Assembly: GCA_947561715.1 (NCBI GenBank)
Contig: OX387201.1
Span: 2,436,001-2,500,000 of the forward strand
Source: Ascidia mentula
Lineage: Eukaryota > Chordata > Ascidiacea > Phlebobranchia > Ascidiidae
Direction of reading: 5' to 3'
DNA: 64,000 nt
A model generated the notes under the pieces. The model had not been told where the DNA came from. It made no database searches and saw only the letters and a program-made list of their open reading frames with translations. A program made the translations under genes and the position numbers. Below, piece by piece: positions 9,600-64,000 of the stretch (positions within the stretch are counted from its first letter, which is position 1; each line of letters starts with the position of its first letter).

Positions 9600-9790
9600 T
9601 TTTTTGACCACACCGGGGTTTGAACCCTTGATATCCTGGCCACGAATCCCGATCAGGTTTTCTTCTTGGTATGTGGGTCGAGCACTTGACCAATGTTGCC
9701 AATCGCCCGGGCATGGTCAGTATACTTGGATGGATGACCGCAGGGTATTTTAAACACGGTTTAAAAGCATACCCCCTTCTCTGGCGCCCC
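9600..9790. mobile_element. SINE-like tract with tRNA-type and 5S-type promoter motifs
   Basis: On the minus strand GGTTCAAACCC (9626-9616) fits the RNA polymerase III B box. TGGTCAAGTGC (9692-9682) resembles an A box, about 60 bp upstream of it. On the plus strand ACTTGGATGGATGACCGC (9724-9741) strongly resembles box C of 5S rRNA genes, and the GC-rich sequence just before it resembles the rest of the 5S internal promoter. No intact tRNA or 5S gene can be folded from it. A degenerate SINE is the best reading. Ends and target duplications were not resolved. Confidence 0.4.
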
Positions 9791-15838: not shown

Positions 15839-16532
15839 TCATTCGTATAACGTGTCATATATTTCTTCCTCGTTGTTGGGTTCTTCAAGGTTTAACTGCT
15901 CGGACACAAAACCACCGTCAGTGTACAGCTATTGAAACGTTACTCAGTCATTTACAATAATTCAATTTATTCAACGCGCCGTGTCAGTCTCTATTCTATA
16001 CCTATAGTACTTGCTGGTGCACTGTTTTGATAAGGGACTGACTGTTAAACATTTATATTAGCACGAGCTTTTGCCAGCTTGATCTCGCTTCATCAGGTGC
16101 TGCAAATGACGTCCAAATCATTAAAATACGAATTTGAAATGCCGTCTGAAAGAGTTGCAGCTGCTAACAGTGTTAACATCAATGCACGTTCCGGGGTGTG
16201 GTTTAGCGCGTAAAGTCGTGTGCAGTAACGACAGCTATGAAATGATGTAAAACGCGCAAAAAGTGTTTGTTGACATGCTGCTATTTATGTTTCCATAAAA
16301 CGGAATACATATAAAATAATTTGCAGCTTTAATATAGATTTCGTTGGAATTTACCAACATTGCCCTGGTGTTAAGTTATATAACACACAGGTCCAGGTAA
16401 TGTTGTAATGGTTGTAGCATACCTGATCCCGTTTACGGCGTCGGTAGATTATGTACCCGATTGCAGTGGTAAGTAGCAACAACACGAAAAATCCCATTAC
16501 CGCAACAAGTGGGATATACCAATTATTTGGAC
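15839..16532 (-). other. Gene C transmembrane and cytoplasmic-tail exons
   Basis: Exon 16532-16423 encodes a hydrophobic span (IPLVAVMGFFVLLLLTTAIG then YIIY) followed by the basic stop-transfer RRRKRD, which sets an outside-in topology. Exon 15928-15839 encodes a 29-residue acidic tail with EEEIYDTLYE next to the stop. YDTL fits the YxxL form used by tyrosine sorting signals or SH2-binding sites. The tail is unrelated in sequence to those of genes A and B except for this tyrosine motif. The 0.5-kb intron between the two exons shows nothing else. Confidence 0.85.
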
Positions 16533-19500
16533 CTGGATAGGATAATAAACAAATGTGAGCCAAACAAACAAAACCAGATAATTTGTTGACCCAAGTAGTC
16601 AAAGTTTAAGGTTTTTTTTCATGGAGATATTGTTTGAAATTCAAAACAAACTGCTTTGAGCTTGTCAAAGGTGTTATCCAATTGCAGAAGTTTGTTAAGT
16701 AAACAACTAGTTGTTACACAAGTGATTAAGTTCAAAAGGACCGACGTAACTAACCAGCACTAGAAATGCAGGGAGACTCGTCGTCATTGAAACCAGGGAC
16801 ACAAACGCACACGTAACTCCCGACGGTGTTGTTGCACCTTTCATTTGCACGACACAGGGTTGCATTTACACATTCATCGACGTCAGTGCAGTGCATACCA
16901 TCACCAGTATATCCGTTTGTACAAGAACACGAGTAATTCCCGGGTAAGTTTGTGCAATTCGCGTTTGAGTGACAAGGCGTCTCCACGCACTCGTCCTTAT
17001 CCACGCATAAAGTTCCATTTGCCTGGAATCCGCCACCACACACACAAATGTAGCTGCCCAGGGTATTGTTGCATGTTGGATGACGGTGGCAGACGTCGTA
17101 GGATGTTCCGTCTTCTGGACACGGATTAAACTCACTTGCGTTGCTGATACACACGCTGGAGTTGATCATGCATTCGTCCAAGTCTTCACAATGAGTGCCG
17201 TTGCCTGCATGCAACCAGCAAAGCATAACATGAACCAAACCAAGATAATGAAAACCTCATTTCTAAACTTGTGTTTTAAAATTCTGTTTTAGCACCAGAC
17301 AAAGGTTTTGGGAACATCATTGAGTGGAATTAAAACATAGTTTTTAGATTTGCAGTTTTCAAAACAATATATTCATTAAGTCATAATCAACGGAAAGTTA
17401 TTATTAGCCCTGTGGATTATCGCGATTTCATCACAGGCAAAATTGTAAAACAAATTGAGCAATTTTCAAACTTGATTTAATCTGTCATTTATATATACCT
17501 GTGAATCCAACCCCACAATCACACGAATAGTTTCCAGGATGGTTCGAACAAATGGCGTTTTCATCGCAAGGAATATTCAGACACTCATTCACATCATCAC
17601 AAAAGCTCCCGTTCTTTTGAAATCCGTCGTCACATACACATGTGTAGTTGCCCACTGTGTTGTTGCAAGTCGGATGGCGGTGACAGAGTTGATAGGGCGA
17701 ACCATCTTCTGGACAACGCAAGAATCCTGTGCTGTTGCTTGTGCATACATCAGGATCCAGAACACATTCGTTTATGTCATTGCAAGAACTGTGACCACTA
17801 AAACCAGGTTTGCATACACAAATGTAGCTCCCTGCAGTGTTCCTACACAAGGTGTTTCCATCGCACAAACCACTGTACAGATCACACTCATTTATGTCGT
17901 AACAGACGGTACCGTTTCCAGTAAAGCCTACGTCACAATTACAGTCGAACGAGCCGTTTGTGTTGTGACAACTTGCAGCAGAACCACAAGATGAGGTTGA
18001 CGCGGGGTCAATGAGGCGTGACGAGCCACCGTCCGGCGATTGGCAAGTTTGGTCGCGCGCGACAAGTGACGTCGCCGTGTCGCACTCGTCAATATCAACG
18101 CACTTGGTCCCGTTGCCGTAGTAACCGCTGTTGCAGGTGCATTGAAATGATTTACTGCAGTTAAGGCAGACAGCGTTGGCATGGCAACAATCTAAAAAAT
18201 AGTGATTTTTTACAGTTTAAGAACTGTACAAGCAAAATGAGACAAATGGACACCTTATATTGCTAAAGCTTGTCTATTTCAAAAAGGATTTATTCTGATG
18301 ATTACACAGAGCAGACAGGTATATTTCGTCTAAATATATATTCTGATGTTAAACATGTGTTGAGCTGTCTGCTTGATTGCTATTTTCAGCTTTACACAGG
18401 AACTCTTGATATGGTTATCAATCCACAGTCTGCCAGCATAGCTTACCGATCATAGTTTATCTCACACAATTTTGTTGTTCTAACTTTTTTGCATCTAACC
18501 TTGAATCAAGTTTCTTGAGGTGGCCATTCCACATAGGTTGTTGCAAGCTGACACATGCACAGTAAAGTTCAAACAGTTTCCAATCTCCATCAAAAAAATA
18601 CTTGTGTCTGCACGATAGTTCCACAATTACAATATAAAAATCATACTTGCCCAAAACGATCTCTAATACTCCATTAAACATTATAATCAAACACATTGGT
18701 ACTATAATAGTCACAAAAGGCTGCATTGATAAGAGGTCTGTCTGAAACTCACATAATTCATATTATTGGAACAACGCATTTGAGTGATTTCATATCAAAT
18801 CACCCAATTTGAATCACATTTCTGACCTGACCCTTTTCAAATTCAATGAAATTTACACAGCAGCTTTACGATGATAAAATAACAAAAAGTTCCAAATTTT
18901 ACAAAAAATTACCAAGTACTTTTTGAGATATCGCACTATGAAATTGCCACAAGATGGCGATAGATATTTGTTTTTTTTGCTGATAACTTAGCTATTTCTA
19001 AATGGATTTCTACAATGTTGGGCTCATTTTGAAGGTAAAGGCAAGGCCTAACAGATTATACTTGTCACTTACAGATTTAGACAACAAAACTTTATTTACA
19101 ATGGAGTAAACAAAATTTTATCGTTAACGTTTGACGGTTCATAACATAAATGTCTCATCTCAAAAAAAAAATATTTTTGGTCAAAATGTTAACTTTTGAT
19201 GGGAAAATAAAAGCTTGACAACTTAAGAAGCGAACACATAAATGGTAATTTTTTTATACATTGCCTGTACTTGCATTTCTTATTAATCACATGCAATGAA
19301 AAACTGCTCAGTAAATATGTTATTTTCACAAGCAAAAGAATCTTTCCAACCCAACATATTTATATGAGCAGCATGGTAGAGCATATAAGATTAATATATT
19401 ACCTGGTAACAAAAGTTATGTGAGATAAACCACATTATACATATAAAAATCTCATTTAATGACATGTGCATTTATGTGTGTTATCATGATATAGCATTGT

Positions 19501-22500
19501 TTGTGAAGTTTTCTGACAATATGAGCAGTAATACCAGCTAAGTTTGTGATATTAAAAATTGGATTCTGGCCAGTTCAGGAAGGGCACAGCATGAGACTAA
19601 TAAGTGTCCAATGATTTGAAAGGTAAATGGAGGCACATAACCAGTTTCACAGCATGATATCTGGGAGTTAATTGACAAGTCAGAACTTTACAGCACAGCA
19701 TAAAGTAGCTGTTTTATTTCCATTCAACAATTAATATGAAGGAAAAGAATAAGACTTTTAATGTCAGTTAAGTTTGTCTATTAGGTTAAAGTGTATGTAT
19801 ATGAGTATATAAAAAAAGCTTCTACAGAAAAGATGGCTTGTGATATAGAAATTATACTAAATGAGTGCTGTGAAGGTAGTTCAACTTCACTGAATTATTT
19901 TCCAACTGCTGAAGAAGTGGAATTACTTCAGTATCGAATACCAACTGACACTGTGATCACTTCTGTTTGTCCTTGGAAAGATGTAGTGGGATATGTAACA
20001 GTGGAGTATGATACCAAATGGTGGCTGGCAATTGTAATCCAACAATGAAACAGATAACATCAAAGTAAAAATTTTGCATCCTGCTGGCCTGTCCCTATCA
20101 TTTGCCTATCCGTTAGCTGAAGATTCTTTAATGATCACAAAAGCAACCATTTTAACAAGTGTCAATCCAAAAACTGCAACAGAAAGAGTATACACACTTA
20201 TTCAGAAAGAACAACACCAAGCAACAGAAACCCTTCAACTGACGTTAAGAAAAAAATTAATCCTAACAGAAGAGTTTTTCAATATTTCTAGTTGTGTATT
20301 GCTTGTTTTTAGTGCCACATATGTATTTCATGTGTGAACTGTATTTGTACATACCGTGGAAAAATAAAATGGGAAATAGTAATTGCATGATATAGTGCAT
20401 GAAAGTGACATGGTGAAGTATAGCAAATGTACAAATATTGCTACCACCAAAAAACTGCTCTTAAATTTTACTGTATAATTTGCCTTTCCACGAAATTTGA
20501 AAAAAAGAGTAACTGTATGGCCTTGAGCAAGTGTACCAATTTTGAGGAAAATCCAAAAAGGTCATGCTTTATGGGTTGGGTGATTTGACATGAAATCACT
20601 CATTTATGCAAGAAGATAAAGTTCTAAAATTAGTTTCAAGAACTCTGTTGGGAAATTTAAAAGCAAGATTCACCTGTTGTTGCGAATGATGAATTCGTCA
20701 CAGAAGATGTGATGACAACTGTGTAGTCATTCGCACCAGTAACTGAACTCCATAAAAGAGATACAAATGTACAGGAGCTGATGACATTAAGACTTGAAAC
20801 ACTATCTGGAACTGACAAAAGGAAAAAAAAGCTTTTTTATTTTTTCTGATGAAATTAATGATGATACGGACTTCATACCTTACAGCATTACATTTGTACT
20901 TGCATTACCTCACAATTTTAATATATGATGCTTTTTAAAAGAACTTGCCATATTAAAACAAAAACAAGTTTTACTATAGTTTTAAAAAGAATACAGGAAC
21001 TGCTGCAAAATTTGCAAACTCCTACTTTAAACATACTTGTTGTTACCCTTTTCTCAACACTAGGTCCAATACCGCCTGCATTTCGGGCAGCTACACTAAC
21101 AATATATTTTCGTCCTGGTAGTAAACCAGTAACATTGTGACCTGTTGCATTCTGGGAAAGAATGAACTCCTTGAGGAAACAAATGCATTGACAATTATAA
21201 CCAACAAACATCCCATGAAATTTAACATTGGATGTTGTGCAATACCAAATGTCCACTGACCACCGCTCTCTTTTTGAGTACAGTTTCCAAAATTACTACA
21301 AGAACATATGAAGAAGCACCAAAAGCTGAATGCCATTCCAAAACAACATAACTGGAGCCAACATCCCTGATGGCAAATCCACTCACAGCACCAGGAGCTA
21401 AGGACATGAGAACAGATAATACTCTTTCACAGGAATGGTTTAAGGTGATTTTTTTTTTTTTTTTATTTATGTGAGCAAAAATGATGTGTTTGTCTTACAA
21501 AGTGCTGGTGACAGGTCAATGTATGAAAGGCAAATCATAAAGAATAAACATAAAAAATAAAATTATGAAGCACAAACTTATATGAACAACAAATTACTGT
21601 GTACTACAACAACTAACGTTCACCACTAATACCTGTGATTTGGTATATTGTGTTGCTTCTCAAATTCAGACCTTGCACAGTAGCAAAAATTGAATAATTG
21701 GTAGCTGGATTCAAACCATGAATTACTTCCAAACGGTTTGTTAAATTTCCCAAAACAAATGTTATGTTTCCATAGAGAGTGTTGATGACTGTTAACTAAA
21801 ATAAGTACATGGTAAGTTAACCAAAAAATTGACAGCCACAAAGGTACACTTACAATGTGGAAATATCTTCTGTCATGTATCGTAAAATATACATCAATGG
21901 AAGAAAAGGTTACAGAATCAGCTACAATATGAGGGATTGCTAAAAACAAAATCCTATAAAGAAAACCAATGACAAACACAGAACAAAAAACAAACTAACC
22001 TGTGCAGTTGACACCATCACCAGAGTAACCTGGCAAACACGTACAGTCAAAGCTTCCAACTACATTAGTGCAATTAGCATTGGGACTGCAATTATTGAGT
22101 CCCAAAACACATTCATTTGTGTCATAACAAGATGTTTCATTTCCAGTATATCCAGGATTGCATGTACAGTTAAAACTGCCAGGTAAATTGGTACAAGTTG
22201 CATTAGAGTCACATGTTGATAGAATGTTGCATTCATTAATATCTTGACAAGATGTTCCATTTCCAGTATATCCAGGATTGCATGTACAGTTAAAACTGCC
22301 AGGTAAATTGATACAAGTTGCATTAGAGTCACATGTGGATAGAATGTTGCATTCATTAATATCTTGACAAGATGTTCCATTTCCAGTATATCCAGGATTG
22401 CATGTACAGTTAAAACTGCCAGGTAAATTGACACAAGTTGCATTAGAGTCACATGTGGATAGAATGTTGCATTCATTAATATCTTGACAAGATGTTCCAT

Positions 22501-25500
22501 TTCCAGTATATCCAGGATTGCATGTACAGTTAAAACTGCCAGGTAAATTGATACAAGTTGCATTAGAGTCACATGTGGATAGAATGTTGCATTCATTAAT
22601 ATCTTGACAAGATGTTCCATTTCCAGTATATCCAGGATTGCATGTACAGTTAAAACTGCCAGGTAAATTGACACAAGTTGCATTAGAGTCACATGTGGAT
22701 AGAATGTTGCATTCATTAATATCTTGACAAGATGTTCCATTTCCAGTATATCCAGGATTGCATGTACAGTTAAAACTGCCAGGTAAATTGGTACAAGTTG
22801 CATTAGAGTCACATGTAGATGGAATGTTGCATTCATTAATATCTTGACAAGATGTTTCATTTTCAGTATACCCAGGATTGCATGTACAGTTAAAACTGCC
22901 AGGTAAATTGGTACAAGTTGCATTAGAGTCACATGTAGATGGAATGTTGCATTCATTAATATCTTGACAAGATGTTCCATTTTCAGTATACCCAGGATTG
23001 CATGTACAGTTAAAACTGCCAGGTAAATTGGTACAAGTTGCATTAGAGTCACATGTGGATGGAATGTTGCATTCATTAATATCTTGACAAGATGTTCCAT
23101 TTCCAGTATATCCAGGATTGCATGTACAGTTAAAACTGCCAGGTAAATTGTTACAAGTTGCATTAGAGTCACATGTGGATGGAATGTTGCATTCATTAAT
23201 ATCTTGACAAGATGTTCCATTTCCGGTATATCCAGGATTGCATGTACAGTTAAAACTGCCCACTAAATTCGTGCAACTTGCATTAGGGTCACATGTGGAT
23301 GGAATGTTGCATTCATTAATATCTTGACAAGATGCTCCATTTCCGGTATATCCAGGATTGCATGTACAGTTAAAACTGCCCACTAAATTCGTGCAATTTG
23401 CATTAGGGTAACATGTGGATGGAATGTTGCATTCATTAATATCTTGACAAGATGCTCCATTTCCGGTATATCCAGGATTGCATGTACAGTTAAAACTGCC
23501 AGGTATATTGGTACAAGTTGCATTAGAGTCACATGTGGATGGAATGTTGCATTCATTAATATCATGACAAAATGTTCCATTTCCAGTATATCCAGGATTG
23601 CATGTACAGTTAAAACTGCCAGGTAAACTGGTACAAGTTGCATTAGAGTCACATGTGGATGGAATGTTGCATTCATTAATATCTTGACAAAATGTTCCAT
23701 TTCCAGTATATCCAGGATTACATGTACAGTTAAAACTGCCAGGTAAATTGATACAAGTTGCATTAGAGTCACATGTGGATGGAATGTTGCATTCATTAAT
23801 ATCTTGACAAGATGTTCCATTTCCGGTATATCCAGGATTGCATGTACAGTTAAAACTGCCCACTAAATTCGTGCAACTTGCATTAGGGTCACATGTGGAT
23901 GGAATGTTGCATTCATTAATATCTTGACAAGATGCTCCATTTCCGGTATATCCAGGATTGCATGTACAGTTAAAACTGCCCACTAAATTCGTGCAATTTG
24001 CATTAGGGTAACATGTGGATGGAATGTTGCATTCATTAATATCTTGACAAGATGCTCCATTTCCGGTATATCCAGGATTGCATGTACAGTTAAAACTGCC
24101 CACTAAATTCGTGCAACTTGCATTAGAGTCACATGTGGATGGAATGTTGCATTCATTAATATCTTGACAAAATGTTCCATTTCCAGTATATCCAGGATTG
24201 CATGTACAGTTAAAACTGCCAGGTAAATTGATACAAGTTGCATTAGAGTCACATGTGGATGGAATGTTGCATTCATTAATATCTTGACAAGATGTTCCAT
24301 TTCCGGTATATCCAGGATTGCATGTACAGTTAAAACTGCCAGGTATATTGGTACAAGTTGCATTAGAGTCACATGTGGATGGAATGTTGCATTCATTAAT
24401 ATCATGACAAAATGTTCCATTTCCAGTATATCCAGGATTGCATGTACAGTTAAAACTGCCAGGTAAATTGGTACAAGTTGCATTAGAGTCACATGTGGAT
24501 GGAATGTTGCATTCATTAATATCTTGACAAAATGTTCCATTTCCAGTATATCCAGGATTGCATGTACAGTTAAAACTGCCAGGTAAATTGATACAAGTTG
24601 CATTAGAGTCACATGTGGATGGAATGTTGCATTCATTAATATCTTGACAAGATGTTCCATTTCCAGTATATCCAGGATTGCATGTACAGTTAAAACTGCC
24701 CACTAAATTCGTGCAATTTGCATTAAGGTAACATGTCGATGGAATGTTGCATTCATTAATATCTTGACAAGATGCTCCATTTCCGGTATATCCAGGATTG
24801 CATGTACAGTTAAAACTGCCAGGTAAATTGGTACAAGTTGCATTAGAGTCACATGTGGATGGAATGTTGCATTCATTAATATCTTGACAAGATGTTCCAT
24901 TTCCAGTATATCCAGGATTGCATGTACAGTTAAAACTGCCAGGTAAATTGGTACAAGTTGCATTAAAGTCACATATGGATGGAATGCTGCATTCATTAAT
25001 ATCTTGACAAAATGTTCCATTTCCAGTATATCCAGGATTGCATGTACAGTTAAAACTGCCAGGTAAATTGGTACAAGTTGCATTAGAGTCACATGTGGAT
25101 GGAATGTTGCAATCATTAATATCTTGACAAGATGCTCCATTTCCGGTATATCCAGGATTGCATGTACAGTTAAAACTGCCAGGTAAATTGGTACAAGTTG
25201 CATTAGAGTCACATGTGGATGGAATGTTGCATTCATTAATATCTTGACAAGATGTTCCATTTCCAGTATATCCAGGATTGCATGTACAGTTAAAACTGCC
25301 AGGTAAATTGGTACAAGTTGCATTAGAGTCACATATGGATGGAATGCTGCATTCATTAATATATTGACAAAATGTTCCATTTCCAGTATATCCAGGATTG
25401 CATGTACAGTTAAAACTGCCAGGTAAATTAGTACAAGTTGCATTAGAGTCACATGTGGATGGAATGTTGCATTCATTGATATCTTGACAAAATATTCCAT

Positions 25501-28500
25501 TTCCAGTATATCCAGGATTGCATGTACAGTTAAAACTGCCAGGTAAATTGGTACAAGTTGCATTAGAGTCACATGTGGATGGAATGTTGCATTCATTAAT
25601 ATCTTGACAATATGTTTCATTTCCAGTATATCCAGGATTGCATGTACAGTTAAAACTGCCAGGTAAATTGGTACAAGTTGCATTAGAGTCACATGTGGAT
25701 GGAATGTTGCATTCATTAATATCTTGACAAGATGTTCCATTTCCAGTATATCCAGGATTGCATGTACAGTTAAAACTGCCAGGTAAATTGGTACAAGTTG
25801 CATTAGAGTCACATGTGGATTGAATGTTGCATTCATTAATATCTTGACAAGTTGTTCCATTTCCGGTATATCCAGGATTGCATGTACAGTTAAAACTGAC
25901 AGGTAAATTGGTACAAGTTGCATTAGAGTCACATGTTGATAGAATGTTGCATTCATTTATATCTTGACAAGATGTTCCATTTCCAGTATATCCAGGATTG
26001 CATGTACAGTTAAAACTGCCAGGTAAATTGGTACAAGTTGCATTAGAGTCACATGTGGATGGAATGTTGCATTCATTAATATCTTGACAAAATGTTCCAT
26101 TTCCAGTATATCCAGGATTGCATGTACAGTTAAAATTGCCAGGTAAATTGGTACAAGTTGCATTAGAGTCACATGTGGATGGAATGTTGCATTCATTAAT
26201 ATCTTGACAAGATGTTCCATTTCCAGTATATCCAGGATTGCATGTACAGTTAAAACTGCCAGGTAAATTGGTACAAGTTGCATTAGAGTCACATGTGGAT
26301 AGAATGTTGCATTCATTTATATCTTGACAAGATGTTCCATTTCCAGTATATCCAGGATTGCATGTACAGTTAAAACTGCCAGGTAAATTGGTACAAGTTG
26401 CATTAGAGTCACATGTGGATAGAATGTTGCATTCATTAATATCTTGACAAGATGTTCCATTTCCGGTATATCCAGGAATGCATGTACAATTAAAACTGCC
26501 GGGTAAATTGGTACAAGTTGCATTAGAGTCACATGTGGATAGAATGTTGCATTCATTAATATCTTGACAAGATGTTCCATTTCCGGTATATCCAGGATTG
26601 CATGTACAATTAAAACTGCCGGGTAAATTGGTACAAGTTGCATTAGAGTCACATGTAGATAGAATGTTGCATTCATTAATATCTTGACAAGATGTGCCAT
26701 TTCCAGTATATCCAGGATTGCATGTACAGTTAAAACTGCCTTCAGTATTTCTGCAAGTTGCATAAGGGTGGCAATTATGAGTGTTTTCAGTGCATGGATT
26801 TGTATCTGAAAAATAATGAAACCTTATAGCCCCCTCTGCACAAAGTTGACATTTTTTATTGGGGCATATGTTTTTAGTTATAATTGTATCCTTTATCAGT
26901 TTATTCACTTCTTGTATTTAGGAAAATGTCAATAAGATATGAGTAAACCGTTTTATTTAGTGGTACGAACAGATCTGTCCTTTCTTGCTACATATCGAAA
27001 ATTATTATTTTCGTAGTTTAAATTCTATTTCAATAAGTACAGAAACTGATAAATAAGCCATTTACATAAATTTAACATTTCCTTTTTTTTTTGTGATAAA
27101 ATGTTGCACTGATGTTTGTTCATCAGTCACTCTTTGTGTGAAATTTTAGATTCTTGTATCGAGTTAAGTAAATATATTGAATTAACTATAGTGGTTTATG
27201 TTAAGCAAGTAGTAAATTGTAAAGCAACAGTATGAGAGTGCATGGGATGGGCAGTTAATTGTATTACAGTGAATGAAGGGGCCCAAGACTGTGGTCTGAA
27301 ACATTCCATAAACTGTCCGAGTTGATCCAGTAACTGATATTTCATATGTGTCTCCAGCTGTTAGATTTGGAAACACAACCTGGTGAAATATGTTCATAAA
27401 AACACCTGCACAATTGTATAGTGAATACTAATTGTATTCAAGCTATGTTTAATAAATAACACATTTTCTTGAATAAAAATAAATTTGTGTAATGATAAAC
27501 TTTAAAAGAACCAAGATAACCTGGTATAATTCAGAACTGTCGACTGCAACTTCATTTAAAGTTACAAGAGTTCCATTGACAGTAATATCAAACTGAGCAG
27601 CACGTGCAAGAATGCTTGAGGTAAATGTTATGACAAGTTGGTTATTAAAGGATGTCACATTGAGTTGTGATGGTAACAGTACTGGTGGACCTGAAAATAT
27701 AGAAAGAATAAAAACTAACAGATTATCGCAAAGTAAATGAAATATGTTTTTGTGGAACCAAACAAAACATCACTCAGTTATTTCAATAATACTATTCAAA
27801 GGGTAGTTGTATTACATTCAAATTTTGTCTCTCATGTCATGGAGTTGAGAAAACATCCCAAGAGCAACAATATTTTTTTGATTCGACAATACCTGCAGTA
27901 GTTAAAAATGTGTATTTGTGTTGGCTCGATGCTGAGTCATCTGCTGAATATCGTCTGTCATAGTTGTTGGACACATTAATACCATTGCATGCCTGGTACA
28001 AATAGTTTTGGCCAATTGCAAATATTTCACCAGGGAGAAACAAAACACTTAGATTTCCTCTTGTAGCTGTGAAAATCACAAAATAAGCAGAGTTTGAATA
28101 AAAAAGTTTGAAAGAGACCTTACCGTTTACATAAGTTTCAGTGACAATCAGTTCTTTTGAGCTTTGAGCCACATCAACGTCATTAGTTCCAGCAGCAAGA
28201 ATTGTACCAGAAGCCACAATACCAAATTTGTCATAGACTGTCAGTACTTCAGAAGCTTGGCTGCCTTGGCAAGTGGAATTTAATAGTATGAGAATGATAG
28301 TTGGTGATATATTTCCTGCAACGTATTGCCCACTTTGAGATCCTGCAAAAGTTGATGTACTTTAGTCAATACTAATGCATGATTGGACACTGTCCAAAGG
28401 TTTTACAGGTACATACAATAAAGCCTATATATCTGCTCTGAAATTCATCTTACAAATGTCTTGATTACAATTACAATCATTCTCAAACATTGACATTGAT

Positions 28501-33357: not shown

Positions 33358-33728
33358 TTAGGAGGTGGAGCTGTCATCGTTTTCATCCGAGACTGGTTTG
33401 TTTTCTGTCGTCGCTTCGCTGTTACTAGTATCCAGTTTGTCGTATAAATCTCTGCCGGTTTTGATGCTGGTGGGGCGTGCAGTGTCTTCGGCAGGCTACG
33501 GAACGAGATCGCGGTATTTAAAAAATCCAATCGCGTAATAATTCGAAGCTTAAAGTTGGGTGAAACCTACAGTCGCATCTCTCAAACTCAGAGCGCGCCC
33601 AGCAAAAAAACACTTTACCTCGTTCTGTCGTCTTCGTCGGTAAACAACATATCCGACTGCAGCAGCGACAAGCAACACCCCGAACAATACCATGACAACG
33701 ATGAAGGGTATCAGCCAGCTAGCTAACC
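33358..33728 (-). other. Gene B transmembrane and cytoplasmic-tail exons
   Basis: Exon 33728-33619 encodes LASWLIPFIVVMVLFGVLLV plus AAAVGYVVY, then the basic RRRRQNE. Exon 33495-33358, entered in phase 0 after a TAG acceptor, encodes a 45-residue polar tail with RDLYDKLD at about tail residues 15-22 and an acidic/serine-rich end (DENDDSSTS). The tail matches gene A almost residue for residue but not gene C. Confidence 0.82.
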
Positions 33729-49214: not shown

Positions 49215-49732
49215 TTAGGAGGTGGAGCTGTCATCGTTTTCATCCGAGACTGTTTTGTTTTCTGTCGTCGTTTCGCTGTTACTAACATCCAGTTTGTCGT
49301 ATAAATCTCTGCCGGTTTTGATGCTGGTGGGGCGTGCAGTGTCTTCGGCAGCCTACGGAACGAGATCGCGGTATTTAAAAAATCCAATCGCGTAATAATT
49401 CGAAGCTTAAAATTGGGTGAAACCTACAGTCGCATATCTTGCACAGTAAAAGTTAAAACTACTTTTTTAAATCGCTTTTAATTCTTGTAGCAAATCCTGT
49501 CAGCTCACAAAATCCAACGGACTTTGATTTGCTGTTTTGAGAAATTCACTAGAAGAAAGCGGGAAGGGCAAATAATTCTCTCAAACTCGGAGCGCGCCCA
49601 GCAAAAAAAAAAAACACTTTACCTCGTTCCGTCGTCTTCGTCGGTAAACAACATATCCGACTGCAGCAGCGACAAGCAACACCCCGAACAATACCATGAC
49701 AACGATGAAGGGTATGAGCCAGCTAGCTAACC
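49215..49732 (-). other. Gene A transmembrane and cytoplasmic-tail exons
   Basis: Exon 49732-49623 (110 nt, as in B and C) encodes the transmembrane span followed by RRRRRNE. Exon 49352-49215 encodes the 45-residue tail starting AAEDTARPTSIK and carrying RDLYDKLD; it differs from the gene B tail at a few residues (AAED/PAED, LDVSNSET/LDTSNSEA, ENKTVS/ENKPVS). The intron between them carries about 140 bp absent from gene B. Confidence 0.82.
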
Positions 49733-52700: not shown

Positions 52701-55700
52701 TTAAATTATTGTTTTACATTACACTTTATCATAATGCTTATGTTTTGTAAGGCAACAAACAATATTTTTGCAACAGTAATATGTTTGTCTGACGTGTTGT
52801 GATTCTTCTCTCAATGGAAGTTCCAGTGCCACCAGCGTTTCGCGCAGCCAGAGAAATGGTGTAACCCTGTCCTGAAAGCAGCCCACTAACATTGTAACCT
52901 GTTGCATTCTGAGGAAGATTGATTTCCTTAAAAGAAAGTAATGCAGATATTACTTAATTTTACTCAAAAAGAGGTGAATATAAGGAAGTGCTTGTTAAAA
53001 TAACAAAAAAAGATTTGTATGAGAAATAATTCCATCTTTATGTTACTATTGGTATATAATATGTCCCAAAACACCTGTAAAGTGTAACTAAAGTTTGGGT
53101 AAACACATTCACATTATTCCGCTTTTTTCCATGATTAAGAGAAGGTCATGCTTTAGTTTACCATATTTCCATCAGCCACCACTCTCTTCTTCCGTGCTGT
53201 AACCAAGGAAACTATAATAACATAAGAAGTTGCACCAACAGCTGACTTCCACTCCAAAATGACATAGTTGGAACCAATTTCCCTGATACCAAATCCACTC
53301 ACATCTCCAGGAGCTTGAGACAAAGAGACACAACAATGGTGTTAGTAATGGTAGCACATGCCATGCACAAGGTTCGCTATTGCTTGTTTATGTCACACAA
53401 TTGTATAAACCATTTTTATTTGCACAGACTACACTGTACATGAACTATACAAGCAAACATTACAATAGAATGGACACCAATAAAACCTTAGAGGTTATAG
53501 AGTCAGGCGCCAATAAGATGGTGATTTTCCTACAGAGAATCAAGCTCTGGCATAGGATTGCATTTAAAGAAAAATGTACAATTAAATACAGTAAATTAAT
53601 AAGCAAAAAACACATATGATATATAGTAAATGTGTTTTTCTCAATCAACATTAATTATCACTCAAGAGTTAACAATTTTAAATCTATAAAAGTAACAAAT
53701 ATATCTTACAACAAATGAAACATGTTACCTGTTAGTTGGTACATTACGTTGCTGGTTAAATTCCCATCATATACAGAAGCAACAATGGAGTAATTTGTAC
53801 CAGGTTCCAATCCACCAATGACTTCCAAATCACTTGTCACATTTTCCAAAACCCGACGGTCTCCAGTAACAGTGTTCACAATGAATAACTGCAAAAAAAA
53901 CGAATATGCAAAAAAATACAGTGTTTTGAACAGGAAATTTTTCCAACCAACCGTATGGAAAACTCTTGGATCACGAACCAAAAAGTTGACGGTAATTGAA
54001 GAAGAGTTCACAGAATCAGGGGTGATATCTGGTTTCAAGATTTCTAAAGAAGAAATTTCAAGTACAACCAAGCAAAAGTCAACAAGAACATCAAACTAAC
54101 CTGTGCAGTTTATGCCATCACCAAGGTAATTTATAAGGCAAACACAGTCATAGGTTCCAACTATATTAGTACAATTAGCATTAGGGCTACAGTTATCAAG
54201 TCCTAAAAAACATTCATTAATATCTTGACAAAATGTTCCATTGCCAGTGAAGCCAGAATTGCACATACACTCAAAGGAACCAGGCAAATTGGTACAGGTG
54301 GCAGTTGAATCACACATAGCTGTCGTGTTACATTCATTTATGTCATCACAAAACGTTCCATTCCCAGTAAATCCAGAATTGCAGGTACATTGAAAAGTGC
54401 CAGGTAGATTGGTACAAGTGGCATTTGAATCACACATAGCTGTAGTGTTGCATTCATTTATGTCATCACAAAATTTTCCATTCCCAGTAAATCCAGAATT
54501 GCAGGTACATTGAAAAGTGCCAGGTGAATTGGTACAAGTGGCATTTGAGTCACACATAGCTGTAGTGTTGCATTCATTTATGTCATCACAAAACATTCCA
54601 TTGCCAGTAAATCCAGAATTGCAGGTACATTGAAAAGTGCCAGGTGTATTGGTACAAGTGGCATTTGAGTCACACATAGCTGTCGTGTTGCATTCATTTA
54701 TGTCATCACAAAATATTCCATTCCCAGTAAATCCAGAATTGCAGGTACATTGAAAAGTGCCAGGTGTATTGGTACAAGTGGCGTTTGAGTCACACATAGC
54801 TGTAGTGTTGCATTCATCTATGTCATCACAAAACATTCCATTCCCAGTAAATCCAGAATTGCAGGTACATTGGAAAGTGCCAGGTGAATTGGTACAAGTG
54901 GCGTTTGAGTCACACATAGCTGTAGTGTTGCATTCATTTATGTCATCACAAAATATTCCATTCCCAGTAAATCCAGAATTGCAGGTACATTGAAAAGTGC
55001 CGGGTGTATTGGTACAAGTGGCATTTGAGTCACACATAGCTGTAGTGTCGCATTCATCTATGTCATCACAAAACATTCCATTCCCAGTAAATCCAGCATT
55101 GCAGGTACATTGAAAAGTGCCAGGTGTATTGGTACAAGTGGCATTTGAGTCACACATAGCTGTAGTGTTGCATTCATCTATGTCATCACAAAACATTCCA
55201 TTCCCAGTAAATCCAGAATTGCAGGTACATTGAAAAGTGCCAGGTGTATTGGTACAAGTGGCATTTGAGTCACACATACCTGTCGTGTTGCATTCATTTA
55301 TGTCATCACAAAATATTCCATTCCCAGTAAATCCAGAATTGCAGGTACATTGAAAAGTGCCAGGTGTATTGGTACAAGTGGCATTTGAGTCACACATAGC
55401 TGTAGTGTTGCATTCATCTATGTCATCACAAAACATTCCATTCCCAGTAAATCCAGAATTGCAGGTACATTGAAAAGTGCCAGGTGAATTGGTACATGTG
55501 GCATTTGAGTCACACATAGCTGTCGTGTTGCATTCATTTATGTCATCACAAAATGTTCCATTCCCAGTAAATCCAGAATTGCAGGTACATTGAAAAGTGC
55601 CAGGTGTATTGGTACAAGTGGCATTTGAGTCACACATAGCTGTCGTGTTGCATTCATTTATGTCATCACAAAATATTCCATTCCCAGTAAATCCAGAATT

Positions 55701-58700
55701 GCAGGTACATTGAAAAGTGCCAGGTGTATTGGTACAAGTGGCATTTGAGTCACACATAGCTGTCGTGTTGCATTCATTTATGTCATCACAAAATATTCCA
55801 TTCCCAGTAAATCCAGAATTGCAGGTACATTGGAAAGTGCCAGGTGAATTGGCACAAGTGGCATTTGAGTCACACATAGCTGTAGTGTTGCATTCATCTA
55901 TGTCATCACAAAATTTTCCATTCCCAGTAAATCCAGAATTGCAGGTACATTGAAAAGTGCCAGGTGTATTGGTACAAGTGGCATTTGAGTCACACATAGC
56001 TGTAGTGTTGCATTCATTTATGTCATCACAAAACATTCCATTGCCAGTAAATCCAGAATTGCAGGTACATTGGAAAGTGCCAGGTGAATTGGTACAAGTT
56101 GCATTTGAGTCACACATAGCTGTAGTGTTGCATTCATTTATGTCATCACAAAACATTCCATTCCCAGTAAATCCAGAATTGCAGGTACATTGGAAAGTGC
56201 CAGGTGTATTGGTACAAGTTGCATTTGAGTCACACATAGCTGTAGTGTTGCATTCATTTATGTCATCACAAAACATTCCATTGCCAGTAAATCCAGAATT
56301 GCAGGTACATTGGAAAGTGCCAGGTGAATTGGTACAAGTTGCATTTGAGTCACATTTAGCTGTAGTGTTGCATTCATTTATGTCATCACAAAACATTCCA
56401 TTGCCAGTAAATCCAGAATTGCAGGTACATTGGAAAGTGCCAGGTGAATTGGTACAAGTTGCATTTGAGTCACATTTAGCTGTAGTGTTGCATTCATTTA
56501 TGTCATCACAAAACATTCCATTGCCAGTAAATCCAGAATTGCAGGTACATTGGAAAGTGCCAGGTGAATTGGTACAAGTTGCATTTGAGTCACACATAGC
56601 TGTAGTGTTGCATTCATTTATGTCATCACAAAACATTCCATTGCCAGTAAATCCAGAATTGCAGGTACATTGGAAAGTGCCAGGTGAATTGGTACATGTG
56701 GCATTTGAGTCACACATAGCTGTAGTGTCGCATTCATTTATGTCATCACAAAATGTTCCATTTCCAGTATATCCAGAATTGCAGGTACATTGAAAAGTGC
56801 CAGGTGAATTGACACAAGTGGCATTTGAGTCACACATAGCTGTAGTGTCGCATTCATTTATGTCATCACAAAATGTTCCATTTCCAGTATATCCAGAATT
56901 GCAGGTACATTGAAAAGTGCCAGGTGAATTTGTACAAGTGGCATTTGAGTCACACATAGCTGTAGTGTCGCATTCATTTATGTCATCACAAAATGTTCCA
57001 TTTCCAGTATATCCAGAATTGCAGGTACATTGAAAAGTGCCAGGTGAATTGACACAAGTGGCATTTGAGTCACACATAGCTGTAGTGTCGCATTCATTTA
57101 TGTCATCACAAAATGTTCCATTCCCAGTAAATCCAGAATTGCAGGTACATTGAAAAGTGCCAGGTGAATTTGTACAAGTGGCATTTGAGTCACACATAGC
57201 TGTAGTGTCGCATTCATTTATGTCATCACAAAATGTTCCATTCCCAGTAAATCCAGAATTGCAGGTACATTGGAAAGTGCCAGGTGAATTTGTACAAGTA
57301 GCATTTGAGTCACACATAGCTGTAGTGTCGCATTCATTTATGTCATCACAAAATGTTCCATTCCCAGTAAATCCAGAATTGCAGGTACATTGGAAAGTGC
57401 CAGGTGAATTGGCACAAGTTGCATTTGAGTCACACATAGCTGTAGTGTTGCATTCATTTATGTCATCACAAAATGTTCCATTCCCAGTAAATCCAGAATT
57501 GCAGGTACATTGGAAAGTGCCAGGTGAATTGGTACAAGTGGCATTTGAGTCACACATAGCTGTAGTGTCGCATTCATTTATGTCATCACAAAATGTTCCA
57601 TTCCCAGTAAATCCAGAATTGCAGGTACATTGAAAAGTGCCAGGTGAATTTGTACAAGTGGCATTTGAGTCACACATAGCTGTAGTGTCACATTCATTTA
57701 TGTCATCACAAAATGTTCCATTCCCAGTAAATCCAGAATTGCAGGTACATTGGAAAGTGCCAGGTGAATTTGTACAAGTTGCATTTGAGTCACACATAGC
57801 TGTAGTGTCGCATTCATTTATGTCATCACAAAATGTTCCATTCCCAGTAAATCCAGAATTGCAGGTACATTGAAAAGTGCCAGGTGAATTTGTACAAGTG
57901 GCATTTGAGTCACACATAGCTGTAGTGTCGCATTCATTTATGTCATCACAAAATGTTCCATTCCCAGTAAATCCAGAATTGCAGGTACATTGGAAAGTGC
58001 CAGGTGAATTTGTACAAGTGGCATTTGAGTCACACATAGCTGTAGTGTCGCATTCATTTATGTCATCACAAAATGTTCCATTCCCAGTAAATCCAGAATT
58101 GCAGGTACATTGGAAAGTGCCAGGTGAATTTGTACAAGTGGCATTTGAGTCACACATAGCTGTAGTGTCGCATTCATTTATGTCATCACAAAATGTTCCA
58201 TTCCCAGTAAATCCAGAATTGCAGGTACATTGGAAAGTGCCAGGTGAATTGGCACAAGTTGCATTTGAGTCACACATAGCTGTAGTGTTGCATTCATTTA
58301 TGTCATCACAAAATGTTCCATTCCCAGTAAATCCAGAATTGCAGGTACATTGAAAAGTGCCAGGTGAATTTGTACAAGTGGCATTTGAGTCACACATAGC
58401 TGTAGTGTCGCATTCATTTATGTCATCACAAAATGTTCCATTCCCAGTAAATCCAGAATTGCAGGTACATTGGAAAGTGCCAGGTGAATTTGTACAAGTG
58501 GCATTTGAGTCACACATAGCTGTAGTGTCGCATTCATTTATGTCATCACAAAATGTTCCATTCCCAGTAAATCCAGAATTGCAGGTACATTGGAAAGTGC
58601 CAGGTGAATTGGCACAAGTTGCATTTGAGTCACACATAGCTGTAGTGTCGCATTCATTTATGTCATCACAAAATGTTCCATTCCCAGTAAATCCAGAATT

Positions 58701-61700
58701 GCAGGTACATTGGAAAGTGCCAGGTGAATTGGTACAAGTGGCATTTGAGTCACACATAGCTGTAGTGTCGCATTCATTTATGTCATCACAAAATGTTCCA
58801 TTCCCAGTAAATCCAGAATTGCAGGTACATTGAAAAGTGCCAGGTGAATTTGTACAAGTGGCATTTGAGTCACACATAGCTGTAGTGTCGCATTCATTTA
58901 TGTCATCACAAAATGTTCCATTCCCAGTAAATCCAGAATTGCAGGTACATTGGAAAGTGCCAGGTGAATTGGTACAAGTGGCATTTGAGTCACACATAGC
59001 TGTAGTGTCGCATTCATTTATGTCATCACAAAATGTTCCATTCCCAGTAAATCCAGAATTGCAGGTACATTGGAAAGTGCCAGGTGAATTTGTACAAGTG
59101 GCATTTGAGTCACACATAGCTGTAGTGTCGCATTCATTTATGTCATCACAAAATGTTCCATTCCCAGTAAATCCAGAATTGCAGGTACATTGGAAAGTGC
59201 CAGGTGAATTTGTACAAGTGGCATTTGAGTCACACATAGCTGTAGTGTCGCATTCATTTATGTCATCACAAAATGTTCCATTCCCAGTAAATCCAGAATT
59301 GCAGGTACATTGGAAAGTGCCAGGTGAATTGACACAAGTGGCATTTGAGTCACACATAGCTGTAGTGTCGCATTCATTTATGTCATCACAAAATGTTCCA
59401 TTCCCAGTAAATCCAGAATTGCAGGTACATTGGAAAGTGCCAGGTGAATTGACACAAGTTGCATTTGAGTCACACATAGCTGTAGTGTCGCATTCATTTA
59501 TGTCATCACAAAATGTTCCATTCCCAGTAAATCCAGAATTGCAGGTACATTGGAAAGTGCCAGGTGAATTTGTACAAGTGGCATTTGAGTCACACATAGC
59601 TGTAGTGTCGCATTCATTTATGTCATCACAAAATGTTCCATTCCCAGTAAATCCAGGATTGCAGGTACATTGAAAAGTTCCAGGTGAATTTGTACAAGTG
59701 GCATTTGAGTCACACATAGCTGTAGTGTCGCATTCATTTATGTCATCACAAAATGTTCCATTTCCAGTATATCCAGAATTGCAGGTACATTGAAAAGTGC
59801 CAGGTGAATTGACACAAGTGGCATTTGAGTCACACATAGCTGTAGTGTCGCATTCATTTATGTCATCACAAAATGTTCCATTCCCAGTAAATCCAGAATT
59901 GCAGGTACATTGAAAAGTGCCAGGTGAATTTGTACAAGTGGCATTTGAGTCACACATAGCTGTAGTGTCGCATTCATTTATGTCATCACAAAATGTTCCA
60001 TTCCCAGTAAATCCAGAATTGCAGGTACATTGGAAAGTGCCAGGTGAATTGGTACAAGTTGCATTTGAGTCACACATAGCTGTAGTGTCGCATTCATTTA
60101 TGTCATCACAAAATGTTCCATTCCCAGTAAATCCAGAATTGCAGGTACATTGGAAAGTGCCAGGTGAATTGACACAAGTGGCATTTGAGTCACACATAGC
60201 TGTAGTGTCGCATTCATTTATGTCATCACAAAATGTTCCATTCCCAGTAAATCCAGAATTGCAGGTACATTGGAAAGTGCCAGGTGAATTTGTACAAGTG
60301 GCATTTGAGTCACACATAGCTGTAGTGTCGCATTCATTTATGTCATCACAAAATGTTCCATTCCCAGTAAATCCAGAATTGCAGGTACATTGGAAAGTGC
60401 CAGGTGAATTTGTACAAGTGGCATTTGAGTCACACATAGCTGTAGTGTCGCATTCATTTATGTCATCACAAAATGTTCCATTCCCAGTAAATCCAGAATT
60501 GCAGGTACATTGGAAAGTGCCAGGTGAATTGACACAAGTGGCATTTGAGTCACACATAGCTGTAGTGTCGCATTCATTTATGTCATCACAAAATGTTCCA
60601 TTCCCAGTAAATCCAGAATTGCAGGTACATTGGAAAGTGCCAGGTGAATTGACACAAGTGGCATTTGAGTCACACATAGCTGTAGTGTCGCATTCATTTA
60701 TGTCATCACAAAATGTTCCATTCCCAGTAAATCCAGAATTGCAGGTACATTGGAAAGTGCCAGGTGAATTTGTACAAGTGGCATTTGAGTCACACATAGC
60801 TGTAGTGTCGCATTCATTTATGTCATCACAAAATGTTCCATTCCCAGTAAATCCAGGATTGCAGGTACATTGAAAAGTGCCAGGTGAATTTGTACAAGTT
60901 GCATTTGAGTCACACATAGCTGTAGTGTCGCATTCATTTATGTCATCACAAAATGTTCCATTTCCAGTATATCCAGAATTGCAGGTACATTGAAAAGTGC
61001 CAGGTGAATTGACACAAGTGGCATTTGAGTCACACATAGCTGTAGTGTCGCATTCATTTATGTCATCACAAAATGTTCCATTCCCAGTAAATCCAGAATT
61101 GCAGGTACATTGGAAAGTGCCAGGTGAATTTGTACAAGTGGCATTTGAGTCACACATAGCTGTAGTGTTGCATTCATTTATGTCATCACAAAATGTTCCA
61201 TTCCCAGTAAATCCAGAATTGCAGGTACATTGGGAAGTGCCAGGTGAATTTGTACAAGTTGCATTCGAGTCACACATAGCTGTAGTGTCGCATTCATTTA
61301 TGTCATCACAAAATGTTCCATTCCCAGTAAATCCAGAATTGCAGGTACATTGGAAAGTGCCAGGTGAATTTGTACAAGTGGCATTTGAGTCACACATAGC
61401 TGTAGTGTTGCATTCATTTATGTCATCACAAAATGTTCCATTCCCAGTAAATCCAGAATTGCAGGTACATTGAAAAGTGCCAGGTGAATTTGTACAAGTG
61501 GCATTTGAGTCACACATAGCTGTAGTGTCGCATTCATTTATGTCATCACAAAATGTTCCATTTCCAGTATATCCAGAATTGCAGGTACATTGGAAAGTGC
61601 CAGGTGAATTGGTACAAGTTGCATTTGGGTCACACATAGCTGTAGTGTTGCATTCATTTATGTCATCACAAAATGTTCCATTCCCAGTAAATCCAGAATT

Positions 61701-64000
61701 GCAGGTACATTGGAAACTGCCATTTGTGTTACTGCAAGTTGCATTGGAATCACAGTTATGTGTGTTTGTGGCGCACTCATTTATATCTAAAAAAAAAATT
61801 TTAATTTATTGTTTGTTGTCAATATATTGTCAATTAAATTTGGTAGTTTGCAGCTTGTGTGGATCTAACGTGACAACACATAATATTACAGTAATTTTTG
61901 TTTAGCAGGATGCTTGATTTTAAGGAAGATAGTCAAAATATTATTATTCTCTGATCTTGTGTCTTCACTGCTATAGACTCTTTTTGGAAACACTGCCTTG
62001 CCATAATGATTTGTTGCAATTGCAATATTTTTTTAATGCTTTACTTGTAATACCATATCTACTATTATCACAAAATTAAGTTACACAGACTGGAGAAAAA
62101 TTCCCTATATTCATGATGCGAGAAGGAGACCTCAATAACATGTTATGCATTTGTTTTTCCACTCTGCTGTTGGATTCCAAGCTAAAGCAAAGAGCATCCG
62201 ACCAAACCTATGATCTTATTTTTTATTGCAATTGGCTCATTTTCTTTTCAACCTTATTGTCAACCTGTGAATCATATTTCAAAATTCTTTGCCACTTGTC
62301 CCTAACGGCAATATTCTAATAATTGGCTGAATAAGTATTGGCAATAGTTGGCAATATGTCAACACAGAAAAAAAGCAGATAAGCTAAATATGAATACCAG
62401 CAGCCATTTAATGACTTTATTCAGCAGAAATCAAATGTGTAATAAAGTCATTAATTTACATTGTGGTCATTAAAATACTACAATCGACAACAAATCATAA
62501 TTTTAAATGTAATGACATAATCCCAATTTTGTTTTGTTATTATCAAGTTAATATCCCTCAATTTTGTTTGATGCAATTCCATTTTTTGCAATAATTCTAG
62601 CATTGTGCACGATTCCAAGTGTTTTTGTAAAATTGAAGCATGCCTACATTTTGTATTTGATGAGGCATATCACTAGTAATAAATCATACAGTTCAATATT
62701 AAATAAATTTGATACGATAGGTAATGTCAAACTATACATATGCAATGATAGCTAACCATTAACAGCAGAGCATGTATCTGATGTCGTTGTCTGATTACTG
62801 CCATCAGCAGCACGAACAGTGGCATTGACTGTAATCATGTATGCCCCAGTTGTCAAGTTTCCAAACTCAACCTGAACAAAAGGTTAAGATAGCATGTAAA
62901 AATTAGGAGATGTGTCAATGCAGAAAAGGTTGCAGCCTGCTTTATTCTGACTAAATCACAATATTTAATAACAGAATTAATATTAATTTTGGTCACAACA
63001 AGCACTTGTTCCGGACAAATAACAGTTTGTATCATTGCTGAAGCAACATAATTCTATTTTAGTGTTGCACCAAATTTTGCAATGTTTATTTCCTGCAAAC
63101 ATCAAAATTCATGCCTAACTACATAAGGGCTGTTGGTAAAAATTTTAGTAAAAAAATTAAAATCGATTTTCATAAACTCTGATGACAAAAGGGTTAAAAA
63201 AAGGATTTTCCAGGGTGCACACCAACTGAGTCTGCACAGGTTGTGTTACATTAATTTCCTCCCTAATATAAAAAAAATATTGATTCACTATGTAGTAAGC
63301 AACTAACAAACAAAAGAGATACCCGATAATTAGTGGAACTGTCCAACATGTTTTCCATCAAAACCATTGTTCTTGTCGTTGTTCCCCCACTTACACTGAT
63401 GGAATACCTTGTAGCTCGAGCAAGAATAGACGGGGAAAATTCAACAATAAGACCAGTTCCATTTGTGAATGAAGTTATATTGAACTGGGAACAGGTGAGT
63501 AGTGGGGGTTCTATGTAATAACATGTGGTTTAAGAATTACATTTTTCTAGAGCGGTGTTTTCTAAAATCTAGAATCAAATTAATTTTTCCTTCAGTATCT
63601 ATTATATTTTTATCGAATCTTTTGGTGCAAGGTTCATACTTCTTGCATTTTTAATATTTACGTGAAATTTTCCCACATGGCAATTGTAAAAAGTTAAGAA
63701 CCATTGATCTAGTGGCCACATACAAACCTCCAAATTTTTAAATTACCTGTTGTAATCAAAATTGAGAACCTATTTGAAGGGTCAGTCATAGACTGTTGTG
63801 CTGAATATAGGCGATCATAAAGGTTTGAACTTACACCACCATTGCAAGTTTCAACCAAGTGGTTTTGTTTGATGGCGTTTATTGTTCCTCTATTTAAAGG
63901 AAAGCTAAAATTTCCAAGACTATCTACAAAACTAGATGTTAATAAAACTTCACTCGGTGAAACATGCAAAACCTTACCTTGGACATGAGAATTGTTAAAT
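49215..64000 (-). CDS. Gene A: giant FN3/cbEGF single-pass membrane protein (5' end outside window)
   Basis: Third and largest paralogue. Exons visible, 5' to 3': beyond 64000-63978, 63923-63747, 63510-63323, 62871-62757, 61786-54101, 54043-53952, 53888-53729, 53313-53162, 52926-52794, 52682-52548, 52374-52267, 52064-51369, 50873-50187, 49732-49623, 49352-49215. Phases match genes B and C exon for exon, and the visible part encodes about 3,530 residues. The order is the end of the unrecognised module (NLYDRLYSA parallels NNYDRRYSA of C), FN3, 64 cbEGFs in one exon, three FN3, ten membrane-proximal cbEGFs, transmembrane exon and tail (RDLYDKLD). By analogy seven exons' worth of N-terminus are missing or partial, so the full protein may be near 3,900 residues. 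Exon 52926-52794 ends in a weak donor (C|GTCAGA). The 3' half is almost identical to gene B. Confidence 0.84.
54101..61786 (-). repeat. Gene A giant exon: 64 tandem cbEGF repeats (120-bp units)
   Basis: The 7,686-nt exon, phase 1 at both ends, holds 62 central units of 40 residues between 41-residue end units. The consensus is DINECDTTAMC or DINECNTTAMC, then DSNATCTNSPGTFQCTC, then NSGFTGNGTFCD. Two zones are visible. The 5' zone (about 56.7-61.8 kb) is almost uniform with GNGTFC. The 3' zone (about 54.2-56.7 kb) has GNGMFC, GNGIFC or GNGKFC and TNTPGTF variants. Each unit keeps calcium-binding, hydroxylation and O-fucose signatures and two or three N-glycosylation sequons. The first unit (ATNTHNCDSNATC) parallels the first units of B and C. 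Copy number should be treated cautiously because arrays this uniform are easily mis-assembled. Confidence 0.95.
59041..61080 (-). repeat. 1,200-bp higher-order periodicity in the gene A array
   Basis: Seven consecutive units at 59041-59880 recur in the same variant order at 60241-61080, ten units (1,200 bp) away. Markers include two adjacent GACACAAGT (CVNS) units, a unique CCAGGATT (CNPGF) unit and a TTTCCAGTAT (GYTG) unit. Only a few differences are seen, for example at 59679 and in the last base of two lines. Confidence 0.85.
61787..62756. other. Gene A intron before the giant exon
   Basis: A 970-bp AT-rich intron with no recognisable gene, element or repeat. The corresponding introns of C (26806-27267) and B (42607-43064) are about 460 bp, are close to each other in sequence and show no obvious similarity to this one. 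Confidence 0.6.

Follow-up and report, generated by a model that had tools for sequence, protein, structure and literature searches.

The tandem genes for giant FN3 and cbEGF (calcium-binding EGF) membrane proteins in the ascidian Ascidia mentula raise the question of how genes with long internal repeat arrays give rise to one another, and of what their products may do. Three such genes, designated A, B and C in the order of transcription, are located on the minus strand of a stretch of 64,000 nucleotides (C69:2,436,001-2,500,000, hereafter the window). The two halves of gene B differ in ancestry: it is a hybrid with a C-like head and an A-like tail, and the kinship switches at the array encoding the repeat stalk. 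Coordinates above 64,000 continue the numbering of the window beyond its end, and the genome searched comprises 195.8 Mb in 79 contigs.

Gene structure

The encoded proteins share one plan: a signal peptide, two FN3 domains (FN3a and FN3b), a module of 212-217 residues spread over three exons (MOD, with exons MOD1 to MOD3), an FN3-like unit (FN3c), a cbEGF array of 38-64 units in a single exon, three FN3-like units (FN3d to FN3f), further cbEGFs, a membrane span and a short tail. A first-pass annotation of the window had recognised this overall order; its FN3 count is revised to two units before MOD, one between MOD and the array and three after the array, with Pfam fn3 matches in each block.

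Gene C (15839..31104, minus strand) has 21 exons and encodes 2,824 amino acids without an internal stop, figures of the earlier annotation that the present models reproduce. Its head, from the signal peptide to FN3c, occupies 27268..31104, its array of 40 six-cysteine units 22000..26805, and the membrane-proximal part with FN3d-f, the cbEGF exons, the membrane span and a tail ending in EEEIYDTLYE 15839..21939. Gene B (33358..46830, minus strand) has 21 exons and encodes 2,841 amino acids; its array of 38 units, the first five C-like and the last A-like, lies at 38041..42606. Gene A (minus strand) likewise has 21 exons; it encodes 3,887 amino acids and has its array of 64 units at 54101..61786. 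It exists as first described but is incomplete in the window: the full model runs from 67,290 to 49,215, the part at 49215..64000 is inside, and the signal peptide, FN3a, FN3b, MOD1 and most of MOD2 are found at 64,001-67,290.

A region of 230 kb was scanned with exon profiles built from exon borders read in the sequence. Splice sites were set by a script and in part by hand, and the exons were then joined into models. Several borders were placed by hand, each at the homologous site: MOD2 of A, MOD3 of B, FN3d2 of B and C, FN3e1 of C, FN3e2 of A and C, EGF2 of A and B, the signal peptides and the tails. All three models are open and end in a stop, with a coding sequence of 8.5-11.7 kb. Intron phases are identical in A, B and C at 20 of 20 introns and every splice site is GT-AG, an agreement that is partly conditioned, as the script demanded GT-AG and the expected phases. 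The shared exon plan described earlier is upheld. Exon lengths are equal in all three genes for 7 of the 21 exons. B and C agree in 9 of 10 exons before the array, and A and B in 10 of 10 after it. The FN3b1 and FN3b2 exons, placed by the script alone, are 178 and 119 bases in all seven modelled copies. Introns at domain borders are in phase 1, as is typical of shuffled domains. Within FN3a to FN3e the introns have phase 0 or 2 and within FN3f and MOD phase 1; the last intron, before the tail, has phase 0.

The ratio of nonsynonymous to synonymous substitution rates (dN/dS) is 0.33-0.36 in four diverged comparisons (C-A head and tail, B-A head and C-B tail), gene C giving 0.35 and 0.36 against the tail and head of A and 0.34 against the tail of B. 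The close B-A tail comparison gives 0.31. The coding status of A, B and C is therefore supported by constraint.

Hybrid origin of gene B

Upstream of the array B is close to C (synonymous divergence, dS, 0.064), their heads being 87-98% identical by domain, and A is distant from both (dS 1.12-1.18). Downstream of the array B is close to A (dS 0.081) and C is distant (dS 0.65). The other four head or tail comparisons span dS 0.65-1.18. The same pattern is found in introns and flanks when the arrays are masked: a single B-C alignment of 5.3 kb spans the 5' half of B and its upstream flank, and the B-A alignments span the 3' half and the downstream flank.

The relationship can also be described as a duplicated block, with ends chosen at the array edges. 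One copy (42560..54140) contains the B head, intergenic DNA and the A tail; the other (26760..38080) contains the C head, intergenic DNA and the B tail. The copies are 11.3-11.6 kb long and 93.5% identical (10,159 of 10,868 aligned bases), and the alignment crosses about 2.3 kb of intergenic DNA. Within the B array, units 1-5 have a nucleotide identity of 0.94-1.00 to C units, units 6-30 have 0.86-0.89, and unit 38 has 0.83 to A and 0.68 to C.

The switch of kinship at the arrays on both sides fits unequal crossing-over through the stalk. In the simplest history A and C would once have been neighbours, and a crossing-over between the array of A on one chromosome and that of C on the other would have given a third gene with the head of C and the tail of A.

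After the duplication of B, dN/dS is 0.70 in the head (not different from 1) and 0.31 in the tail. Positive selection on the heads was considered and rejected: the FN3a comparison of C and B gives a dN/dS of 1.94, which derives from 8.5 and 1.5 differences without reaching significance.

The cbEGF arrays

The arrays consist of 120-bp tandem repeats with 94-96% matches. Cysteine spacing is kept in the units, and the calcium-binding start is present in 39 of 40 units in C, 33 of 38 in B and 63 of 64 in A; the hydroxylation pattern of cbEGF domains is present in 39, 38 and 63 units, respectively, and the O-fucose pattern in 39, 37 and 63. Each unit has one to four N-glycosylation sequons, mostly two to four. 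The O-glucosylation pattern C-x-S-x-[PA]-C was found in none of the units of C, B or A (0/40, 0/38 and 0/64), and the pattern for the sugar added by EOGT was sought in the arrays without a match.

Each array is homogenised. Among units of equal length the mean amino acid identity within an array is 0.91 in C, 0.87 in B and 0.94 in A, and between arrays it is 0.80 for C-B, 0.68 for C-A and 0.62 for B-A. Third codon positions are clearly the most variable in A alone; in B the positions are nearly even, and in the arrays of C and of gene 9 (below) second positions vary most. In a homogenised repeat one open unit suffices to make the whole frame open; that an array is open is therefore not independent evidence.

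A giant one-exon cbEGF array with an open frame of 3,878 codons was also observed at C67:20,196,889-20,206,470 (plus strand).

The wider cluster and its relatives

The three genes described earlier are part of a larger group, which the first-pass annotation under-stated: nine related copies are found across about 120 kb, six of them beyond the window at C69:2,500,001-2,573,000 (approximately 64,001-137,000). The proposal that large type I membrane proteins form a tandem family in expansion is supported. The additional copies, named 4-9 by their order along the cluster, are genes 4, 5 and 6 (minus strand, about 72-86 kb), 7 (plus, 88-92 kb), 8 (minus, 95-107 kb) and 9 (plus, 115-137 kb). Genes 4 to 7 consist of a head and a few EGFs (two to eight profile matches), without FN3d-f matches. 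Genes 8 and 9 have parts of the head, an array, some FN3d or FN3e exons and extra cbEGFs. The array has 3 units in gene 8 and 100 in gene 9, where it is a single open frame of 4,113 codons. Gene 4 (about 72,300-75,110) is shifted in frame in MOD, its FN3a is partial and its signal peptide unclear.

Membrane spans, called by eye without a predictor, are present in A, B, C and genes 5, 7, 8 and 9. Genes 4 and 6 end in a similar short sequence without a span and therefore look secreted.

Genes 8 and 9 form a second case of a common head and common stalk repeats with tails that cannot be aligned, similar in pattern to the case of gene B: the heads match piecewise at 78-87% of nucleotides and the array repeats at 80-86%, and the tails gave no alignment at E 1e-3.

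A search of the genome with MOD gave nothing outside the cluster. With the head, one relative was found on another contig at about C52:8.454 Mb (E 3.8e-7), followed by weak matches at C52:8.644 Mb (E 0.007) and on C2 (E 0.8). The first relative (C52:8,452,501-8,460,500) has FN3-like, MOD1, MOD3 and FN3c-like exons, a Ser/Thr-rich stretch and a membrane span, and no EGF match in the 8 kb read. The existence of this relative without EGFs indicates that the head can move as a unit; either the cluster gained the EGF stalk or the relative lost it. The earlier annotation did not include the six further copies, the relative without EGFs, which is on another chromosome, or the hybrid origin of B.

Domain assignment and comparison with known proteins

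The pieces scanned with Pfam were the heads of C and A, FN3d-f of A, MOD of A and B, EGF1 of C and B, EGF2 of A and single FN3 exons; EGF1 of A, EGF2 of B and C, FN3d-f of B, most of FN3d-f of C, the arrays and the exons for the membrane span and tail were outside the scan. The fn3 family matched the C head at 4.3e-10, the A head at 2.9e-10 and FN3d-f of A at 1.1e-13, and EGF families matched the three scanned cbEGF exons at 1e-26 or better. FN3c, FN3d and FN3f were assigned partly from position, exon pattern and a weak motif.

MOD had no Pfam match above the cut-off, and MOD1 no sequence match in PDB. Comparing MOD1 and MOD2-3 with the FN3 profiles of the cluster gave no signal, which carries little weight, as the same comparison linked the FN3 profiles to one another at a probability of 31% at best. 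For MOD1 of B, AlphaFold with an alignment of six rows predicts a strand-helix-strand-strand-helix-strand fold with a predicted local distance difference test score (pLDDT) of 80 and a predicted TM-score of 0.69, the five models spreading from 53.8 to 80.3. MOD2-3 reached a pLDDT of 37, with the contiguous translation of the window as input and a short intron read through. An architecture of FN3, MOD and cbEGF array was not described among the titles and abstract openings listed by the searches. MOD and the domain order are thus unmatched in the libraries and literature searched, and the domains themselves, the tandem expansion and the formation of a hybrid are of known kinds.

The sequence relatives of the C array in PDB are Notch, uromodulin, fibrillin and NELL2, which have the EGF repeats in common with it and differ in domain order, in tail and in the FN3-MOD head. 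Notch has LNR repeats, a long intracellular part with ankyrin repeats and C-x-S-x-[PA]-C in many of its EGF repeats; in the present genes no LNR was found in the scanned pieces, the tail exons encode 29-45 amino acids and the O-glucosylation pattern is absent from the arrays. Fibrillin has TB domains with eight cysteines between runs of cbEGFs, and no TB family was found in the scanned pieces; nor was the zona pellucida (ZP) domain of uromodulin and UMODL1. Tenascin, which also combines EGF and FN3, is secreted and has EGFs, then a run of FN3 domains, then a fibrinogen-like C-terminus. Here the order differs, a membrane span is present and the scanned pieces have no fibrinogen match. The earlier separation from Notch, fibrillin, uromodulin and tenascin is upheld in the scanned pieces, although the EGFs of the array match the first three.

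Other systems resemble the cluster in part. In chicken BG a gene may have different 5' and 3' ancestry, which is also true of gene B; BG has an Ig V-like region, whereas here the exchange is at a giant cbEGF array and the head consists of FN3 and MOD (PMC4046983). The Botryllus fuhc locus, with fuhc-sec, fuhc-tm, fester and FcoR, is likewise a tunicate cluster with secreted and membrane forms. The fuhc, fester and FcoR proteins are reported to be constructed from Ig, sushi and two EGF domains (PMC12065747), and of these none besides EGF was above the cut-off in the scanned pieces. The FN3c region of A gave a weak Ig_ILCR1 match (E 0.0026, 18.3 bits, cut-off 27). Arrays of EGF-like repeats are also found in the ascidian egg-coat proteins HrVC120/HrVC70 and CiVC57, HrVC70 being a sperm receptor. 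HrVC120 and CiVC57 have a ZP domain, CiVC57 also a von Willebrand domain, and 12-24 repeats (PMC9265791), in contrast to the scanned pieces without ZP and the 38-100 repeats of the long arrays here.

Other features of the locus and genome

The N-terminal half of a Myc protein was found at 2-541 of the window (minus strand; Pfam Myc_N, E 4e-20), so that myc adjoins the cluster on its downstream side. Similar short translated stretches at 9,565-9,750 of the window (plus) and 109,780-109,944 (minus), with 67% identity over 24 residues, are perhaps an interspersed repeat. In the mitochondrial COX1 frame 18 codons are AGA or AGG, about 16 of these past the likely start, and those that could be placed coincide with conserved glycines of COX1. 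This fits the ascidian code, in which AGR stands for glycine.

Discussion

We consider it rather probable that the products of the cluster are type I cell-surface receptors with a recombining cbEGF rod, a family expanded in this lineage. A role in recognition or adhesion is what we infer as the best fit to the anatomy of the genes and their mode of evolution. The distal head, FN3-FN3-MOD-FN3-like, would be the recognition part, held far from the membrane on a calcium-stiffened, heavily glycosylated rod. A cbEGF domain measures about 2.7-3 nm, and the rod may reach about a hundred nanometres or more. Below it would follow the membrane-proximal FN3 and cbEGF domains, the single span and the short tail with its tyrosine motif. 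The near-identical 120-bp repeats would serve as sites of recombination, altering the length of the rod and homogenising each array, and unequal crossing-over between neighbouring genes would couple one gene's head to another's tail.

The tails contain DLYDKL in A and B and the terminal EEEIYDTLYE in C; that of gene 8 has a proline-rich stretch and those of genes 7 and 9 are short. In A, B and C the residue at position -2 from the tyrosine is acidic, so that none has an immunoreceptor tyrosine-based inhibitory motif (ITIM). FcoR receptors of Botryllus bear ITIM, hemITAM (the activating motif with a single tyrosine) or core Yxx[ILV] motifs (PMC12065747), and YDKL of A and B and EEEIYDTL of C agree with this core as motifs. 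In DNGR-1 (CLEC9A), EEEI precedes the tyrosine of the hemITAM, the motif being IYTSL, and the isoleucine limits activation (PMC12669754). The resemblance of the C tail to this hemITAM is a match of motif and is at most suggestive; in receptors with a hemITAM, Src kinases phosphorylate the tyrosine and SYK is recruited.

Several observations weigh against a receptor family shaped by recognition and by exchange at the stalk. The contrast in rate between head and tail after the duplication is borderline (nonsynonymous to synonymous differences 51:23 and 46:41, p 0.052), and none of the five tested parts of the C-B head, FN3c being outside the test, has a dN/dS significantly above 1. Second positions exceed third positions in the differences of the C and gene 9 arrays, which leaves no purifying signal there. 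Giant cbEGF arrays elsewhere in the genome indicate that the array by itself is not special, and no head or FN3d-f match is listed at the array at C67:20.20 Mb. Genes 8 and 9 are inverted relative to each other, so simple unequal crossing-over fails to explain that pair, and the shifted frame, partial FN3a and lack of a clear signal peptide make gene 4 probably a pseudogene. The tail motifs are short: Yxx[LIV] arises in 48% of shuffled C tails and 10.6% of shuffled A tails, and the triacidic form in 1.4% of shuffled C tails. Finally, the proteins of the ascidian egg coat also use EGF arrays.

For this last reason a structural role is the main rival. Glycosylated cbEGF rods would then be spacers or glue in the egg coat, the tunic or an epithelial layer, with repeats evolving in concert. 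The 24 EGF-like repeats of CiVC57 and the 12 of HrVC120, and the homogenisation of repeats 3-22 of abalone VERL through concerted evolution, are consistent with it (PMC9265791), and so are the sequons in every array unit. Ascidian coat proteins bear a ZP domain, however, which the Pfam-scanned pieces do not; the tails have tyrosine motifs, and the head is portable, its EGF-less relative having a membrane span of its own. We regard a matrix or coat function as rather unlikely.

Neutral birth and death, in which non-essential genes with easily recombining arrays turn over without selection for recognition, could account for the loss of frame in gene 4 and for giant arrays at other loci. It is improbable in view of the clear constraint in the diverged pairs and of the frames of A, B and C, which are open over the whole of their coding sequence.

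Gene conversion could also have produced the pattern in B, if B began as an ordinary duplicate and C later overwrote its head, or A its tail. Identity varies along the block (0.79-0.99 per 500 alignment columns), as conversion might leave it. The homology crosses the intergenic DNA, and on either side the kinship changes at the array, so that a conversion tract of more than 11 kb placed in this way is the less simple account, and we regard it as quite improbable.

That the models fuse unrelated exons, the head being a gene separate from array and tail, is very improbable: the weakest join is that of FN3c to the array, where the donor is not strong (ACT|GTAATA in B and C), but no signal-peptide start was seen by eye upstream of the B array, a phase-1 donor follows FN3c in all seven modelled copies (the search demanded that phase), and the order of head and then array recurs in genes 8 and 9.

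Under the favoured reading, a family of cell-surface receptors, a more specific and tentative proposal may be made, which we hold to be rather unlikely as it stands: the stalk would be a recombination hinge that pairs one ligand-binding head with varied signalling tails. C with its hemITAM-like tail and B with YDKL would then be a paired-receptor set, and a second set would consist of genes 8 and 9, whose stalks have 3 and about 100 repeats. Immune recognition repeatedly makes use of paired receptors, with similar ectodomains but different tails. The allorecognition systems of ascidians are diverse, and only some of their receptors are known.

Of greatest value is the view of the repeat stalk as a site of exchange between head and tail. 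Since the cluster is receptor-like and changes fast, and a genome and RNA-seq reads have been published for this ascidian, the proposal is directly testable. Should the products be matrix proteins instead, the cluster would still be a clear example of the evolution of stalk length and of head-tail combinations by way of a repeat array.

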